Origin: an uncultured Bacilli bacterium
GTDB taxonomy: Bacteria > Bacillota_I > Bacilli_A > RF39 > UBA660
Length of the DNA: 43,024 nucleotides
NCBI GenBank assembly: GCA_947589105.1
Contig: CANQBL010000007.1
Location: 1-43,024, forward strand
Reading direction: 5' to 3'
Shown here piece after piece: positions 19,329 to 43,024 of this stretch. The position numbers were made by a program, and so were the translations under genes. Each line of letters opens with the position of its first letter. Position 1 is the stretch's first letter. The notes beneath the pieces are model-generated. The model was not told where the DNA came from, did not search any database, and worked only from the letters and a program-made list of their open reading frames with translations.

Positions 19329-19652
19329 TCATTTTAAAACTTTAATATAACCTAAAATGCCTTGCTTTATATCTTTTTTTATATAATCATCAAATCTTTT
19401 ATAAAAACTATAAACAAAATCTATATCTTTTTTTCTTGCAATCTCAAAAGATTCTTTATCGCATAAACCCCTTACATCATACACTTCATCATTTATCAAA
19501 CAAGCACAATGATCATTATTTTTTTGTAAAACCATTTTACAATCTGGATAAATTAATTTTAATATTTCATAATATTCTAAACAATACCCATTTGAAAACA
19601 GGCTATATATATCACAATTAAAATAATTACTTAAAAATTCATTAATTTTCAT
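19329..19652 (-). CDS. Small protein with a possible Cys-His-Asp site
   Basis: 107 aa from the ATG at 19652 (TTG at 19673 would add seven). No family name can be given. The layout NGYCLEYYEILKLIYPD, then KNNDHCACLINDEVYDVRG resembles small papain/transglutaminase-like proteins, in which a Cys at the start of a helix, a His and an Asp line up (here Cys23, His48 and Asp60, approximate). The start lies 20 bases after a strong terminator and has no clear ribosome binding site, so its expression is unclear. It is next to two other orphan genes in an accessory stretch. Confidence 0.5.
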   Translation of the reverse strand: MKINEFLSNYFNCDIYSLFSNGYCLEYYEILKLIYPDCKMVLQKNNDHCACLINDEVYDVRGLCDKESFEIARKKDIDFVYSFYKRFDDYIKKDIKQGILGYIKVLK

Positions 19653-19671
19653 AATTGTTAAAAGAACGCTC

Positions 19672-19707
19672 AAAAAAAATCACCATAGTATTCTATGGAG
19701 ATTTTTT
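19672..19707 (-). terminator. Strong terminator after the 275-aa orphan gene
   Basis: Stem AAAAAATC, unpaired base, CCATAG, four-base loop, CTATGG, unpaired base, GATTTTTT, with a T run on the minus strand. Confidence 0.9.
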
Positions 19708-19724
19708 AACAGAGTTACAAATAG

Positions 19725-20552
19725 CTATTTTTTAACTATACTTTTACTAGCAAACTTAGAAAAATCTATATTTAACAAGGATATAAGTTGTTTCCTATTA
19801 AAATTTTTAAGTGATGTACATGCTAAAGTCTCAAATAGTCCTTCATAAAAATCATTAAATAACTCTTTTTGTTTTTCAATAAAAGGATAATACATATCAT
19901 CTAATTCATTAATTAAATCTACAATAGCAATATCATAAGGAGTATAGTCGTAATTATATATTCTAACATCTAAAGGTTTATATCCAGCAAAATTATCAAT
20001 ATTTTCATTTATACTTTCAACAAAAATTGGTCTTCTAAAATAGTAAATTTTTCCATTTTCATTAACTACTTTATTTTCCTTGTAATTATTTAAAAAAATT
20101 AATTTATTATTTATATATTTTATTTTTTGTTTATTTTTATAACCAGAAATTATAAAAGCATTTCTTTGGGTATTAAATAAACATTTAGAAATTAATTTAT
20201 TATTTTTGTATAAATACATTTTATTTTCAATTACCATATCATCATATTTTTCTCCCTTTTGGGTTTGAAATAAACCATTTAATTTATCAGTTGAATTATT
20301 TTTTTCAATAGAGTAATTATAACCCAAAGAGTTACCATCATAAAAACTATTAGCATAAAGATGAGAATTTTCCAAAAAAGCATTAATAGTTATTTTGCCA
20401 TCACAATAAAAAGCTTCTCCAACAGGATCTAACATTTTGTTATATATTATGATTTTTTCACCCTTATAAAACGATTTTTCTTTTAGATTAAAAACTGAAA
20501 GTTCAAATAAAGACAAAAATTGATAAAAATTGATAGTAAAAAGTTTTTTCAT
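19725..20552 (-). CDS. Hypothetical protein, beta-rich N-terminus
   Basis: Not recognised. 275 aa from the ATG at 20552, chosen because AAAGGGTGATTTT precedes it; an upstream in-frame start at 20603 lacks a site. The middle section (about 50-190) alternates Tyr/Asn/Lys strands with KNNKLISKCLFN, KYINNKLIFLNN and ENGKIYYFRRP. This looks like repeated beta-hairpins of 20-25 residues, similar to antitoxin-like or MORN-like repeats but not clearly either. The C-terminal third is helical. No signal peptide. It is the gene immediately downstream of the large repeat protein, separated by a hairpin. Confidence 0.5.
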   Translation of the reverse strand: MKKLFTINFYQFLSLFELSVFNLKEKSFYKGEKIIIYNKMLDPVGEAFYCDGKITINAFLENSHLYANSFYDGNSLGYNYSIEKNNSTDKLNGLFQTQKGEKYDDMVIENKMYLYKNNKLISKCLFNTQRNAFIISGYKNKQKIKYINNKLIFLNNYKENKVVNENGKIYYFRRPIFVESINENIDNFAGYKPLDVRIYNYDYTPYDIAIVDLINELDDMYYPFIEKQKELFNDFYEGLFETLACTSLKNFNRKQLISLLNIDFSKFASKSIVKK

Positions 20553-20594
20553 AAAATCACCCTTTTGAGTTACTATTATAAATTTAACTTTAAT

Positions 20595-20627
20595 AAAAAG
20601 CAAGAAAATTTAAATATTTTCTTACTT
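20595..20627 (-). terminator. Terminator of the repeat-protein gene
   Basis: Stem AAGCAAGAAAAT against ATTTTCTTACTT (one G-T pair, six-base loop) followed by five T on the minus strand. Confidence 0.75.
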
Positions 20628-20662: not shown

Positions 20663-22636
20663 TTATTTACTTTTGCTTTTTCTATATTGTTCAACGTTTT
20701 CTGGAGTTATTTTAAATCCTTTCATATGTATCGTATATGTTAATGGCTCTGGAATAATTAAACCTTCAGCACTTGTTAAGCTGCTTAAATCTAAATATCC
20801 ACCTACCCTTTGTGGTAACACTAATCCTTCGGCACTTGTTAAGCTATTTAAATATAAATAGCCGCCTATATTTTGTGGTAATTTTAATCCTTCGGCACTT
20901 GTTAAGCTGCTTAAATACAAATATCCACCTACGCTTTGTGGCAATATCAATCCTTCGGCACTTGTTAAGCTGCTTAAATATAAAGAGCCTCCTATGCTTT
21001 GCGGTAATTTTATGCCTTTGGCACTTGTTAAGCTATTTAAATCTAAATATCCACTTACCCTTTGTGGTAATACTAATCCTTCGGCACTGGTTAAGTAGCT
21101 TAAATCTAAATCTCCGCCTACTCTTTGTGGTAATACTAATCCTTCGGCATTAGTTAAGCTACCTAAAAATAAAGAGTCACCTATGCTTTGCGGTAACACT
21201 AATCCTTTGGCACTTGTTAAGCTATTTAAATCTAAATCTCCGCTTATACTTTGTGGTAATTTTAATCCTTCGGCACTAGTTAAACCGCTTAAATATAAAG
21301 AACCACCTATATTTTGTGGTAATTTTAATCCTTCGGCATTAGTTAAGTGGCTTAAATCTAAATCACCGTAATAATAAATAGTATCTTCATTTATTTCTTC
21401 TTTATTTAATGCTATTTGTCTTTCTTCACAATTAAAAATATTTGACAAATCTTTTCTTTTATTATTTCTTTCATTTTTAATTTCTTTAATTCTTGGGTCT
21501 TTTCTATATCCAAACCCATATATTTTATCATTTATCTCATATAAAAACGTTAATTCCTCTTTTGTTAATTCTTCTTTATTTTTATGCTTTTTATATATTT
21601 TCGTTAACTTTTTCATATCGTTAACTTTTTTATAATATTCTTCTTTATCTGGGAAATCTTTAATCTTTTCTTCTACTACCTCTTCCATTTCAGATTCGAT
21701 GTTTTGATTTTCTGCTACTCCTCTTATTTCACCTATTTTATTTCCTTCCATTCTTATCGCAATTCTTGGTACTTTATACTCATCTTTTTCATCTAAAGTG
21801 TAATATACATAAAAATCCCCATTGGATAATTGATTTTTTGCAGTATCTTCTCCTGCCGTACACCACCCTGTATTATATCCTTGTAATGAGTTTACCAAAG
21901 GCATATGATTACTTCCCCTATTATACTTTACCCATTTACCTATGTTTCTTTTTATTATATTTTTATTATTACTTAGTACCTTTGTTAATATATAAGTATA
22001 TATTTTGGGAAATGAGCCTACCCTTACCAATCCTTCTAAATCTTTATCATCTATTTCTTCTTTGTTCATTGCTTTTATTATCATATCTATTGATTTAGAT
22101 AATGCTTCTCTATTTAAATCACAAAATGGACTTACAGTATGTTCACTTCTTTTATAGAATACTTGTTTTTCTTTATCATATTTTCCTATTTTTAGCATCC
22201 CTTGAAAAGCCCAGTATTTTGCCCAAAACGGATATACCTTTGCATCGTCACTTAAAAAATAATCCAACCAATTATCAATACTTTTCTTTTGGTTTTCTAT
22301 TACTTCTTTTTCTAGTTCTTTTTTCATTTCATCAGTTATTTCAACATGTCCAAATCCTCTTTCAAGAGCTAATTCTTTTTGTTTTTCATAATAACTTTGT
22401 GGTATGTTTTCTTTTTTTATAACATATTTTTCATAATAACACTTTTTTAAATATTCTATATGTTTTGATTTTTCTTTTACTTTATTATGAATATCTTCTA
22501 ACTTTTCCAAATAATTTTTAATATTATTAAACTTATCATATTCATTTCCTTTTCCATGATGAAGAACCTGCTTATCTTTATATAAGTCTTTATATAATCT
22601 ATCTATTAATCTTATATAATCTTTTTGTTTATTCAT
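20663..22636 (-). CDS. Large protein with ten 21-residue leucine-rich-like repeats
   Basis: About 657 aa. Residues about 1-430 are helical and Lys/Glu-rich, with a conserved-looking core GWCTAGEDTAK, GDFYVYYTLDE, PRIAIRMEGNKIGEIRG, followed by helices. The order of this core (Trp-Cys, a strand, then basic I-E-I-R-G with Asn) is reminiscent of PcfJ-like proteins from mobile elements (inference). Residues about 430-640 are ten repeats of 21 aa, consensus GGxLxLSSLTSAEGLxLPQxI, a beta-solenoid type of repeat. A short conserved tail IHMKGFKITPENVEQYRKS ends the protein. No signal peptide or membrane helix. The start is ATG 22636, ten or eleven bases after AAGGATG. A second copy of its 3' end lies at the window edge. 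Probably part of a multicopy accessory family; partner unknown. Confidence 0.75.
   Translation of the reverse strand: MNKQKDYIRLIDRLYKDLYKDKQVLHHGKGNEYDKFNNIKNYLEKLEDIHNKVKEKSKHIEYLKKCYYEKYVIKKENIPQSYYEKQKELALERGFGHVEITDEMKKELEKEVIENQKKSIDNWLDYFLSDDAKVYPFWAKYWAFQGMLKIGKYDKEKQVFYKRSEHTVSPFCDLNREALSKSIDMIIKAMNKEEIDDKDLEGLVRVGSFPKIYTYILTKVLSNNKNIIKRNIGKWVKYNRGSNHMPLVNSLQGYNTGWCTAGEDTAKNQLSNGDFYVYYTLDEKDEYKVPRIAIRMEGNKIGEIRGVAENQNIESEMEEVVEEKIKDFPDKEEYYKKVNDMKKLTKIYKKHKNKEELTKEELTFLYEINDKIYGFGYRKDPRIKEIKNERNNKRKDLSNIFNCEERQIALNKEEINEDTIYYYGDLDLSHLTNAEGLKLPQNIGGSLYLSGLTSAEGLKLPQSISGDLDLNSLTSAKGLVLPQSIGDSLFLGSLTNAEGLVLPQRVGGDLDLSYLTSAEGLVLPQRVSGYLDLNSLTSAKGIKLPQSIGGSLYLSSLTSAEGLILPQSVGGYLYLSSLTSAEGLKLPQNIGGYLYLNSLTSAEGLVLPQRVGGYLDLSSLTSAEGLIIPEPLTYTIHMKGFKITPENVEQYRKSKSK
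20745..21374 (-). repeat. Tandem array of ten 63-bp coding repeats
   Basis: The repeat unit runs CTTCGGCACTTGTTAAGCT... on the plus strand with period 63. Copies differ at few positions, and many differences are shared between copies, which suggests recent duplication or gene conversion. It encodes the repeat domain of the 657-aa protein; the opposite strand stays open by chance. Confidence 0.9.
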
Positions 22637-22658
22637 ATAACATACCATCCTTATTTAG

Positions 22659-22687
22659 ATTATAACATTTTTTATTTATTATTGTAA
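22659..22687 (-). promoter_or_regulatory. Promoter of the repeat-protein gene
   Basis: TTACAA (22682-22687), 17 bases, TATAAT (22659-22664) with a TGT extension, minus strand. Confidence 0.6.
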
Positions 22688-22715
22688 ATTAAAGATAAAT
22701 CTCATTAAAATAACA

Positions 22716-22749
22716 ATATAAAAAAGTGTCTTATTAAGACACCCTTTTT
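22716..22749 (-). terminator. Terminator of parE-parC
   Basis: GTGTCTT/AAGACAC with A and T runs (22721-22749), six T on the minus strand. Confidence 0.88.
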
Positions 22750-22769
22750 ATTAAAAGTATAATTTTTTT

Positions 22770-25304
22770 CTAATCAAAATTATCTAAAAAATCATCTATT
22801 GTCATGAATTTATCATCTATTTCTTTTAATGATACTTCTTTTTTTAATTTAGATTCTTCTTTAGTAACTGGTTTAGATATTTCTTTAACTATGTTTACAT
22901 CATCTTTAGTTAAATTAGCAACCTCATAAACATTATCTATTTTTTTCTTGGTAATTGAAGAACCTATTGAATACCTATCCATTATTGGTATTTCAGTAAA
23001 CTTAATTTCTTTAGTATCATTACCCGATAATAGAATTATACTATGTTTAGTATCACCAATGAAAGCTTTTATTATTTCTTGTGGATTACTTTTTACTTCC
23101 TTAAGTAAAAGTAATCCTCTTTTAGCTCGTGATGTTTTTTCAAATTCAGATAATTTAATTCTTTTTGAAAGACCTTTGTTTGTTACTATGGTAACATATT
23201 CACTTTTTTGATCAAATACTAATCCACTTACTACTTCATCATCTTTTAAGTTTATAGCTTTAACTCCTGATGTTTTAAGTCCTATACTTGGTATTTCAGA
23301 TGTATCATACCAAAGTCCATACCCTTTTTTAGTTGCAATAAATATTTCGTTATAAGGCTCAATGGTAACATCAACAACCTCATCATTATCTTTTAGTTTT
23401 ATAAACATAATAGGTTTTGAGTATCTTTGTACCACAAAATCGGAAAGTATAGTCTTTTTTGTCATACCATTTTTAGTAAATGTAATTACTTGTCTTTGAT
23501 CAAATTTAGATACGTTTAATGCTTTTACTATTTTTTCATCTTGCGCAATAGAAATTATGTTACTTATGTGCTTACCAAGTTCTTTCCACTTAAGTTCAGG
23601 CAAGTCATGAACTGGTACGTATAAATAATTACCCTTATTAGTAAATAATAAAAGTGTATCAAGGGTATTTTGTTCAAATAACCCAATTACATAGTCATTT
23701 TCTTTAACTAAGGTATCTTCGTCTTCTTTAGCAGCGTAAGACTTTTTGGATACTCTTTTTACGTAACCCTCATTTGTTACAACAACGATAACATCTTCTT
23801 TAGGTATCATGGCTGTTAAATCTATTTTTATTTCTGTTATTTCGTTTTTAATACTAGTTTTTCTAGGTGTTGCAAACTCTTTTTTTACTTTTCTTAACTC
23901 GTCTTTCATTACCCTTTTAAGTTCTGATGAATCAGATAAAATAAGTTCGTATTCTTTTATTGCATCTTGTAAGTTTTTCATCTCGTTTTCAACGTCAGTT
24001 ATGTCTGTGTTTGTTAGACGATATAATTGTAACATCACGATTGCCGTTGCTTGCTTTTCGGTAAACGAAAACTCTTTTACTAAGTTTTCTATTGCGTCCG
24101 ATTTATTTTTAGATGCTCTTATTACCTTAATTACCTCATCTAAAATACTAATAGCCTTAATTAGACCTTCTAAGATATGATACCTTTCTTTAGCATGCTC
24201 TAAATCAAACTTAGTTCTTCTTATTAAAACTTCTTTTTTATGCTCGATAAAAGCATCTATTATTCCTAGTATACCAACTTGCCTTGGCCTTCTTTGAACT
24301 ATTGCAATCATATTAAGACTATAAGATATTTGCATGTCCGTATTCTTAAGCAAATAATTGGTAATTAACTCTACGTTAACGTCTTTTTTAAGTTCAATAA
24401 CAATTCTAAGTTCTCCACGAGATGTTTCATCCCTTACTTCCAAAATACCATCTACTTTTTTATCGATTCTAATATCATTCATCTTTTTAACAAGACTTGC
24501 TTTGTTAACTTCATATGGTATTTCGGTAATAACAATCATTTGTTTATTTTTTTCTTTAATAACTTCATACTTAGACTTAACAATTATTTTACCCCTACCG
24601 GTTTCATAAGCATTTTTTATTTCGTTAGAACCTTCTATTACTCCTCCGGTTGGAAAATCAGGACCAGGCATAACTTCCAGGATGGAATCAAGTCTGCAAT
24701 TTGGTGAATCTATCCTTTTTATTGTAGCGTCAATTACCTCACCTAAGTTATGGGTTGGAATGTTCGTTGCGTAACCTGCTGATATACCAGTTGAACCATT
24801 TACTAAAAGGTTTGGAAAACCTGCTGGTAAAACCACTGGTTCTTTTAACGTATCATCATAGTTAGGAGCCATTTCAACGGTGTCTTTAGTAATATCTTCT
24901 AATAGAACGTTACTTATTTTAGATAATCTTGCCTCAGTATAACGCATTGCTGCTGGTCCATCACCATCTATTGAACCATTATTACCATGCATGTCTACGT
25001 AAGGAGTTTCCATCTTCCAATCCTGACTCATTCTTACCATTGCATCATATATTGATGAATCTCCATGAGGGTGGTAATTACCCATTATTTCTCCTACCGA
25101 TTTAGCACTTTTACGGTACTTTTTATCATAGGTGTTACCACTTTTATACATACCATATAATATTCTTCTTTGAACTGGTTTTAAACCATCTCTTACATCA
25201 GGTAAAGCACGGTCTAAAATAATTGTTTTACAATACCTACCAAAGCGTTCACCCATTATTTCTTCAAGTGAATATTCTTCTATTCTTTGTAATACATCTT
25301 TCAC
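22770..25304 (-). CDS. parC: DNA topoisomerase IV subunit A
   Basis: Cleavage-rejoining subunit that unlinks daughter chromosomes. About 844 aa from GTG 25304 (AAGGTG lies eight bases before it; a GTG at 25313 overlaps that site). Catalytic tyrosine is in AMRYTEAR (about residue 122). The motif HGNNGSIDGDGP, with Asn-Asn, is the ParC form; GyrA usually has Asn-Phe. The quinolone region HPHGDSSIYDAM has wild-type Ser residues. Six blades of the C-terminal beta-pinwheel can be followed (for example VVVTNEGYVKRVSK, FTKNGMTKKTIL). It starts 13 bases after parE. The normal Bacilli arrangement parE-parC is kept. Confidence 0.95.
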   Translation of the reverse strand: MKDVLQRIEEYSLEEIMGERFGRYCKTIILDRALPDVRDGLKPVQRRILYGMYKSGNTYDKKYRKSAKSVGEIMGNYHPHGDSSIYDAMVRMSQDWKMETPYVDMHGNNGSIDGDGPAAMRYTEARLSKISNVLLEDITKDTVEMAPNYDDTLKEPVVLPAGFPNLLVNGSTGISAGYATNIPTHNLGEVIDATIKRIDSPNCRLDSILEVMPGPDFPTGGVIEGSNEIKNAYETGRGKIIVKSKYEVIKEKNKQMIVITEIPYEVNKASLVKKMNDIRIDKKVDGILEVRDETSRGELRIVIELKKDVNVELITNYLLKNTDMQISYSLNMIAIVQRRPRQVGILGIIDAFIEHKKEVLIRRTKFDLEHAKERYHILEGLIKAISILDEVIKVIRASKNKSDAIENLVKEFSFTEKQATAIVMLQLYRLTNTDITDVENEMKNLQDAIKEYELILSDSSELKRVMKDELRKVKKEFATPRKTSIKNEITEIKIDLTAMIPKEDVIVVVTNEGYVKRVSKKSYAAKEDEDTLVKENDYVIGLFEQNTLDTLLLFTNKGNYLYVPVHDLPELKWKELGKHISNIISIAQDEKIVKALNVSKFDQRQVITFTKNGMTKKTILSDFVVQRYSKPIMFIKLKDNDEVVDVTIEPYNEIFIATKKGYGLWYDTSEIPSIGLKTSGVKAINLKDDEVVSGLVFDQKSEYVTIVTNKGLSKRIKLSEFEKTSRAKRGLLLLKEVKSNPQEIIKAFIGDTKHSIILLSGNDTKEIKFTEIPIMDRYSIGSSITKKKIDNVYEVANLTKDDVNIVKEISKPVTKEESKLKKEVSLKEIDDKFMTIDDFLDNFD

Positions 25305-28601: not shown

Positions 28602-29024
28602 TTATACAAGTTTTTTTGTCAATACGTTACTAAGCCAAAAATAGTCTTTGTTAAGAAAGTCACAAACAAATACGCTTTCTTCTTTTTCAATAATTTTAAA
28701 AAAAGCCGTTATATTTTTATTTGTTTTAACCTTTATATAAGTGTTATACACTGTTAATTTTGTTTTCTCAACCCCATTATCTAATATATGCTTATTTAAA
28801 GTTTTTTTATAATTTTCATCATAAGCATACTCCCTATATATATTACTATTAATCCGTGTTTTACTAAAAGGAACCGCCATCTGTTCAAATAATCTATAAG
28901 ATATTATAAAATCATTTTGACTAGACAATGATATTTGTTCAAGCATTTTATATAAATAATATGTTTTATTGTAGTATAATTTAGAAAATGAATCATTAAT
29001 CTTAAATAAATAATATACCCTCAT
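28602..29024 (-). CDS. SirA-like inhibitor of replication initiation
   Basis: 140 aa. In Bacillus, SirA is made at the start of sporulation, binds DnaA domain I and stops new rounds of replication. Here the N-terminus RVYYLFKINDSFSKLYYNKT fits the family's YYLYLI-type opening. The C-terminus VFVCDFLNKDYFWLSNVLT fits the family's FLAID..N..YGWLNP ending. The middle matches only weakly. The strongest support is position: next to yneF, 0.4 kb from lexA, as in B. subtilis (yneE = sirA). It is preceded by AGAGGTG. The middle is divergent, so function as a DnaA inhibitor is inference. Confidence 0.65.
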   Translation of the reverse strand: MRVYYLFKINDSFSKLYYNKTYYLYKMLEQISLSSQNDFIISYRLFEQMAVPFSKTRINSNIYREYAYDENYKKTLNKHILDNGVEKTKLTVYNTYIKVKTNKNITAFFKIIEKEESVFVCDFLNKDYFWLSNVLTKKLV

Positions 29025-42333: not shown

Positions 42334-42762
42334 TTAATTTAAACGGTACATATATCCATCAAAATAATATCCTTCACCATTATTATTACTATATTCATCC
42401 TGACTTTTTGAAGAAAAAGAATCACTTTTACAAATTGCTTGATTATCATCTATGTTTCCATTTTCTCCCGTTTTAGGATTTGTAACATCCTTTTCTAAAT
42501 AATCTTTATCAATAAGATCTTTAACTTTAACACATTCTTTATCTATGCCATCAGTTTCCGTTTCTATATATATGCCATCAGTTTCCGTTTCTATATAAGC
42601 ACTAGCTATATCAACAATTTCTTTTGCGGCGATATATTTAGCTTTAGCTCTAGAATCATTTATATTCTTTATTACGCTTGATGTTGCAATAACAAGTATT
42701 ATAGAAAGCACTACTATTACCGCTAATAACTCGATTAAAGTAAATCCATTTTTTCTTTCCAT
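42334..42762 (-). CDS. Type IV pilin-like (pseudopilin) protein
   Basis: About 142 aa from ATG 42762, preceded by AGGTGATAAT. Class III signal MERKNG-FTLIELLAVIVVLS: cleavage after Gly6, mature Phe1 and Glu5, then a hydrophobic helix, as in ComGC and other type IV pilins. The C-terminal part is polar with two Cys (about Cys77 and Cys100) that may pair. Residues 56-73 are an exact double copy of YIETETDGI. It stands alone, not within a comG operon. It may be a ComGC-like DNA-uptake pseudopilin (comEA and comEC are 10 kb away) or a surface pilin. Confidence 0.8.
   Translation of the reverse strand: MERKNGFTLIELLAVIVVLSIILVIATSSVIKNINDSRAKAKYIAAKEIVDIASAYIETETDGIYIETETDGIDKECVKVKDLIDKDYLEKDVTNPKTGENGNIDDNQAICKSDSFSSKSQDEYSNNNGEGYYFDGYMYRLN
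42544..42597. repeat. Exact 27-bp tandem duplication in the pilin-like gene
   Basis: TATGCCATCAGTTTCCGTTT plus seven more bases, 42544-42570, is repeated without change at 42571-42597. It is in frame and adds nine residues. Confidence 0.95.
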
Positions 42763-42772
42763 ATTATCACCT

Positions 42773-42797
42773 ATCATCATAATATCATTATGATGAT
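42773..42797. promoter_or_regulatory. Palindrome over the pilin promoter
   Basis: ATCATCATAAT, loop ATC, ATTATGATGAT: 11-bp perfect arms covering the -10 and part of the spacer. Good candidate for a repressor site. Confidence 0.5.
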
Positions 42798-42807
42798 TCT
42801 TAGTCAA
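42779..42807 (-). promoter_or_regulatory. Promoter of the pilin-like gene
   Basis: TTGACT (42802-42807), 17 bases, TATTAT (42779-42784), minus strand. Confidence 0.65.
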
Positions 42808-42846: not shown

Positions 42847-42974
42847 ACTTTTTAAGCTATATAATTTTTAGTAGGCATCTAAAAAATAGTTACATACATT
42901 ATAGCTTAAAATTCATTTAAATTACAATTATAGTAAAAATTTCGTTAACTAATTTCATTTTAAACTACTAAATC

Positions 42975-43024
42975 TTATTTACTTTTGCTTTTTCTATATT
43001 GTTCAACGTTTTCTGGAGTTATTT
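42975..43024 (-). CDS. 3' end of a second repeat protein (partial)
   Basis: The last 50 bases of the window, read on the minus strand, are identical to 20663-20712, the 3' end of the 657-aa repeat protein, including the stop codon. They encode the tail TPENVEQYRKSKSK. Sequences just after the two stop codons are different, so the copies are distinct genes with an identical end. The remainder lies outside the window. The total length and number of repeats are unknown. Confidence 0.85.
   Translation of the reverse strand, partial: ITPENVEQYRKSKSK

Follow-up and report, generated by a model that had tools for sequence, protein, structure and literature searches.

Organization of the gene and its protein

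The window, i.e., the whole stretch of 43,024 nucleotides of an uncultured Bacilli bacterium of the gut that was analyzed here, carries on its minus strand an open reading frame of 661 residues (P0001) in which a conserved head is followed by an array of 63-bp units and a short cap. This gene is referred to as copy A, and a second copy in the same genome as copy B. The genome under study is labelled G000 and that of its sister species G001; G008, G015, and G017 come from the same genus, and G004, G010, and G016 are relatives. The features, with the basis of each, are as follows.

20663..22648, minus strand: whole open reading frame P0001 (copy A), 661 aa (ORF list)
21374..22648, minus strand: conserved head, aa 1-425, helical with a beta core (32-sequence alignment; AlphaFold2)
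21851..21868, minus strand: GWCTAG motif of the head, aa 261-266 (32-sequence alignment)
20741..21370, minus strand: ten 63-bp units, 21 aa each, predicted LRR/FNIP-like solenoid (TRF, unit alignment, fold search)
20663..20740, minus strand: C-terminal cap TYTIHMKGFKITPENVEQYRKSKSK after the last unit, conserved between copies (comparison of copies)
22659..22688, minus strand: promoter-like TTTACA-18-TATAAT with extended -10 TG, 11/12 matches
22720..22748, minus strand: intrinsic-terminator-like site behind the upstream parC-like gene
21390..23514, minus strand: tract spanning the final ~740 nt of parC and the P0001 head, 94-100% identical to G001
42975..43024, minus strand: 3' end of copy B, which continues on contig C11 (exact 77-bp overlap with the window)

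The second ATG, at 22636, may be an alternative start codon. TRF reports a 63-bp period with 9.6 copies and 0% indels at 20757-21363, and in the register starting 'GG' there are ten complete units, all in frame within the C-terminal half of P0001. An earlier note on this DNA had described about ten near-identical copies; the ten in-frame units stand, but "near-identical" is too strong, since pairwise identity of the units averages 78% in DNA (67-89%) and 68% in protein, and exact self-repeats within the array reach 34 nt at most. All ten units are distinct. Short strands occur at unit positions 20-21 and 4-5 in the AlphaFold model, and the tail is predicted to be a solenoid of 21-aa leucine-rich (LRR/FNIP-like) repeats.

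The head is modelled as helices around a beta core (AlphaFold2; mean pLDDT 85.8), and W262, C263, G277, Y282, P294, R299, E307, G310, and Q315 are invariant in the 32 aligned sequences. It was found in 35 of the 291 genomes of one bacterial family, without any match outside that family in a phylum-wide draw of genomes; a class-wide draw gave one marginal match, with stops. The head defines a clean, undescribed family restricted to one lineage. The nearest named contigs belong to 'Lapin' MAGs of uncultured Bacilli, a name that suggests rabbits as their source. A Foldseek search with the head returned an uncultured Caudovirales protein (E 6e-6). A phage origin of the head was considered and rejected, as phage and viral collections gave no match even at E 10 and no viral contig was found.

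For P0001 as a whole, there is no curated-level match in NCBIfam, PHROGs, or PADLOC, and none in Pfam above the cut-off; threonine synthase (NCBIfam) and Glutaredoxin2_C (Pfam) were rejected as identities, being weak matches inside the repeats and far below the cut-off. Solved structures gave no match by sequence, and no significant PDB match by fold. By hydropathy scan only, no signal peptide or membrane segment was seen (highest 19-aa value, 1.0; polar N-terminus), on which ground a secreted or surface adhesin of the BspA type was rejected. The protein is probably cytoplasmic.

The terminator-like site behind parC, together with the promoter-like site, which is identical in both copies of both G000 and G001, suggests that P0001 forms its own transcription unit. 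Genes of the P0001 type stand singly among genes that by eye are housekeeping-like (parE/parC, metG/tatD, mutL, rpsL/rpsG, fusA/tuf, and rplU), the neighbouring parC and parE having been identified by homology. Single PADLOC-type matches are scattered among 72 neighbours, and these do not amount to a defence island; assignment to a known anti-phage system was rejected for want of a PADLOC model match and of defence-island context. Elsewhere in the window, a YhcG-type DUF1016/PDDEXK nuclease at 27337-28269 matches the PADLOC candidate set PDC-S02 (E 1.5e-69), and 28602-29024 encodes a SirA-like protein (sporulation inhibitor of replication; Pfam E 1.5e-12) in what is a small-genome bacterium.

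Two loci and the number of units

The compared genomes are species representatives, one per species, and are MAGs, apparently from short reads. Locus A is marked by the gene order parC, orf292, YunG-like, MurJ. The second copy in G000, copy B, encodes 787 aa with 16 units and lies on contig C11, the first 77 bp of which (C11:1-77) are exactly those of window positions 42948-43024; the length of this overlap suggests an assembler k-mer of 77. Gene order in G001 and G017 supports a place for copy B after the pilin-like gene, which in the window lies at 42334-42807. From the overlap and this gene order, copies A and B are placed about 20 kb apart, with the window ending inside copy B. The pilin-like gene itself holds an in-frame 27-bp tandem repeat at 42535-42597 (2.3 copies, 94%).

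At locus A there are 10 units in G000, 15 in G001, and 7 in G008, and at locus B there are 16 in G000, 12 in G001, 10 in G015 (where the head is broken by stops), and at least 14 in G017, in which the copy runs to a contig end. Intact copies in the genus therefore carry 7, 10, 12, 15, or 16 units, always in frame, and two copies within one genome differ as well (16 vs 10 in G000; 15 vs 12 in G001). The earlier note had reasoned that a unit of a multiple of three could change in number without a frameshift, and had proposed comparing repeat number among related genomes; between species representatives lengths do differ with the frame kept, as it anticipated. The gene can also be missing or reduced: parC, orf292, and MurJ are present without a P0001 homologue in G004, G010, and G016, and only the last repeats of copy A remain at locus A of G017, beside a cluster of secreted-protein-like genes.

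The surroundings of both loci vary too. The parC-MurJ spacer (orf292 and the YunG-like gene; 19329-20603 in the window) is a variable islet of 0.4 to 7.4 kb in the genus, and in G017 a SipW/TasA-like secreted-protein cluster occupies it in place of P0001. Copies of AAAAAGTAAA lie on either side of copy B, which sits beside a hairpin in the dut-pilin spacer (G000:C11 2391-2576, L035; L037), and carries 30-odd nt of the parC 3' end with terminator and promoter; the same spacer lacks the gene in 12 relatives (among L126-L137). The hairpin was considered as a repeated element and discarded, since it occurs at a single place per genome. In G008 (G008:C24; L039 5449-5517), a second parC 3' end of 23 codons with its own terminator directly follows the P0001 homologue, an arrangement that looks as if the gene had integrated into parC and duplicated the parC end. 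Duplication of a gene 3' end as a general rule of direct-repeat mobility was dropped after 32 loci had been tested, because pieces of the parC tail occur only at parC-linked copies (G008, G015, and copy B).

Constant heads and exchanged tails

Heads of the genus copies are 93-98% identical in DNA. Unit-level alignment of the syntenic tails of G000 and G001 gives negative scores for both A (-6.2) and B (-7.5), but aligning the tail of G000 copy B with that of G001 copy A gives +9.0 and reveals exact matches 165, 119, and 98 nt long. That the G000 B tail matches the G001 A tail better than its own orthologue indicates an exchange of arrays, or of large parts of them, between loci A and B; as judged from these alignments, tail segments have moved both between the two loci and between species.

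Locus A was compared along its length. Between G000 and G001, identity is 94-100% over a stretch made up of the final ~740 nt of parC, terminator, promoter, and head; parC upstream of this tract is 72-95% identical, and the tail downstream of it mostly 80-90% with indels of units. The corresponding pS values are 0.347 for parC overall and about 0.09 for the heads. The tract from the parC end to the head looks like the product of recent homologous recombination, ending in a tail that does not follow.

Duplication within an array has left its own marks in G001 copy B, where a 99-nt stretch is repeated exactly in tandem and a self-match, exact over 140 nt, lies at an offset of 252 nt (four units); these are traces of recent tandem unit and block duplication. 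In the window array the longest exact repeat is 34 nt, and the main source of change appears to be recombination among paralogous arrays, not slippage inside this array. The fast-changing, length-variable array that the earlier note foresaw is borne out in its variation between species.

The pattern recurs beyond this pair. G268, from a second genus, has two copies whose heads agree at 99-100% over their first 840 nt, one carrying 10 repeat motifs and the other 5. The two copies of G114, from another genus, start identically and have different tails. Copies A and B have exact stretches of 82-112 nt in common, which exceeds the apparent k-mer of 77, so that local chimaeras between arrays are possible in a short-read assembly and part of the unit order may be chimaeric. 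The more general reading that unit number and order come from short-read misassembly of the repeats is quite improbable: contigs do break in these genes (window/C11, G017 C5/C60, and G114) and the two copies do share exact stretches of up to 112 nt, but the window array holds ten distinct units and no exact self-repeat longer than 34 nt, and the same pattern is found in separate genomes and genera.

Tail classes on one head

Three kinds of tail occur on the same head, namely 21-aa repeats of the LP type, GLENLQSIGGDAYF repeats comparable to these in length, and repeats of DUF4116. Tails of the DUF4116 type are found in six relatives (three confirmed by Pfam, E down to 1e-94) and form one group on the head tree; the other tail classes need several changes, giving 8 changes in all where the minimum possible is 3. 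Further arrangements were seen in single relatives. One genome (L104, G270:C18) has head genes with DUF4116-type tails in tandem and additional copies on other contigs, a 1082-aa relative (L044, G010:C27) repeats the head linker region (query aa 341-429) several times, and the relative in G199 gives a sub-threshold LRR_5/EndoS signal.

Variable and invariant positions of the unit

Across 70 units from six copies, Leu 4, Leu 6, Leu 9, Gly 14, and Pro 18 are invariant, and variation is greatest at positions 3 (S/D/Y), 5 (D/Y/S/N), 7 (S/R/N/D), 8, 16 (V/K/I/A), and 20 (S/N/R), of which position 16 is the residue after GL. Positions 3-5 and the residue after GL had been named beforehand as variable; this holds for 3, 5, and 16 but not for the invariant position 4, and positions 7, 8, and 20 had been missed. 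The pN/pS ratio is 0.90 at the six variable positions, 0.24 at the other unit positions, and 0.11-0.22 in the heads, so that substitutions concentrate on predicted exposed positions, in keeping with what had been suggested. The array may be a recognition surface.

Similarity to known repeat proteins

Among the closest known counterparts is the FNIP/FGxxFN repeat (PF05725), for which structures are available and which is often fused to F-box or kinase heads (PMC9525666). In such fusions the repeats are thought to supply specificity, and the authors propose many ligands and liken FNIP repeats to lamprey VLRs (PMC9525666). Tandem repeats of 21-22 residues, a hydrophobic LxL-like strand, an LP/IP pair, a variable number of units, and an unrelated constant domain are common to both, as a solenoid fold may be; P0001 differs in being bacterial, in having neither FN nor FG motif nor a PF05725 match, and in its head. 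The likeness is at the level of the fold (Foldseek against BFVD, E 4e-4, to giant-virus FNIP proteins). The P0001 repeats are also LRRs in the general sense of tandem units of 20-30 residues with an LxL strand; no curated LRR or FNIP profile in Pfam matches P0001.

The tail also resembles repeats of an LRR-like kind in tailed phages (EBPR podovirus 1; uncultured Caudovirales A0A6J5SXX7), which have the form LPxSIGGSLxL, are 20-21 residues long, and are 42-44% identical; the Foldseek match of the tail to a phage protein reaches E 1.7e-11 at 44% identity (BFVD), without a significant PDB match. For the P0001 head, phage records yield nothing even at E 10. A literature search gave no match to the phage-type repeat string LTSLEGAP.

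For the head, PcfJ (PF14284; plasmids and phages) was considered. In hhalign GWCTA is set on the PcfJ HC motif and the beta core is then aligned, and several PcfJ-like proteins are among the top Foldseek matches; the head differs in having W for H, an added repeat tail, and no Pfam match. Membership in PcfJ was rejected and is not claimed, because the similarity is not significant (hhalign E 0.23; Foldseek E 0.04) even though the motif co-aligns. The PcfJ papers, as far as their accessible text goes, appear to record the gene in surveys of plasmids, genomic islands, or gene transfer. DUF4116 (PF13475), which has been modelled as an alpha-solenoid (PMC8078820), is present as 6-11 repeats in same-head relatives instead of the leucine-rich tail and is lacking in P0001.

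Proposed function and alternative explanations

Taken together, the aligned copies show that head and tail evolve differently and that unit number varies with the frame kept in intact copies. The explanation that we favour, and regard as reasonably probable, is that P0001 combines its head with an LRR/FNIP-like solenoid in a probably cytoplasmic protein that has a recombining, predicted binding surface. The tail would bind a protein, or possibly another ligand; recombination among the arrays of one genome, together with gain and loss of units, would re-tool the specificity of the tail; and the head would do a constant job, acting on or reporting what the tail binds. This division of labour would resemble that in F-box/FNIP or NLR-type proteins. 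A bolder form, in which the gene would be a single-gene diversification system with a constant domain and exchangeable arrays (LRR-like, IGG-type, and DUF4116) reshuffled between genomic copies, is speculative and for the present rather doubtful.

It might instead be that the solenoid is structural and that unit number and surface residues wander neutrally, as repeats recombine easily. Tandem units recombine by nature, no ligand is known for the tail, and pN/pS at the variable positions is near 1 and not above it. However, neutral wandering sits poorly with core residues that are invariant over 70 units, with a frame that is kept in intact copies, with purifying selection at the non-variable positions, and with related heads that carry other repeat classes, which hints at a need for a repeat surface in itself. 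We consider this possible but rather unlikely.

A more specific form of the favoured explanation is an anti-phage or anti-plasmid sensor, the tail of which would recognize foreign proteins and the head of which would act when triggered. The patchy distribution over the family, horizontal exchange, rapid turnover of the tail, and similar repeats in phage proteins would all fit such a sensor. Against it stand the lack of a PADLOC match and of a recognizable effector domain in P0001, as well as housekeeping-like neighbours in which scattered PADLOC-type matches form no island. A defence role is possible but the usual context is lacking, and the sensor can be put forward only tentatively.

An unlikely reading is that P0001 spreads as a mobile single-gene cassette and that the tail is a by-product of its mobility. 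Insertion places differ between genera and lie beside housekeeping-type genes, copy B brings its piece of parC, terminator, and promoter into a AAAAAGTAAA-bounded spacer that lacks the gene in 12 relatives, and the second parC end in G008 lies directly after the gene. Yet no transposase or integrase is recognized beside most copies (a recombinase-like neighbour occurs in one relative, G199), direct repeats at the flanks are no general feature of the family, and the 740 nt of parC within the tract make the exchange with G001 look like ordinary homologous recombination.

Implications

Under the favoured explanation, i.e., a constant head with a recombining tail, bacterial proteins of this kind would be candidate sensors or binders, the targets of which may be under arms-race pressure. 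Their tails provide a natural series of lengths and surfaces, and the paired loci in one genome make recombination directly testable. If the tail is indeed a recognition surface, host-associated bacteria with genomes of about 1 Mb would here possess a diversification system on the scale of a gene, and if the bolder form with exchangeable arrays were true, it would be functionally like the lamprey VLR or plant NLR repertoire, in small-genome gut bacteria.
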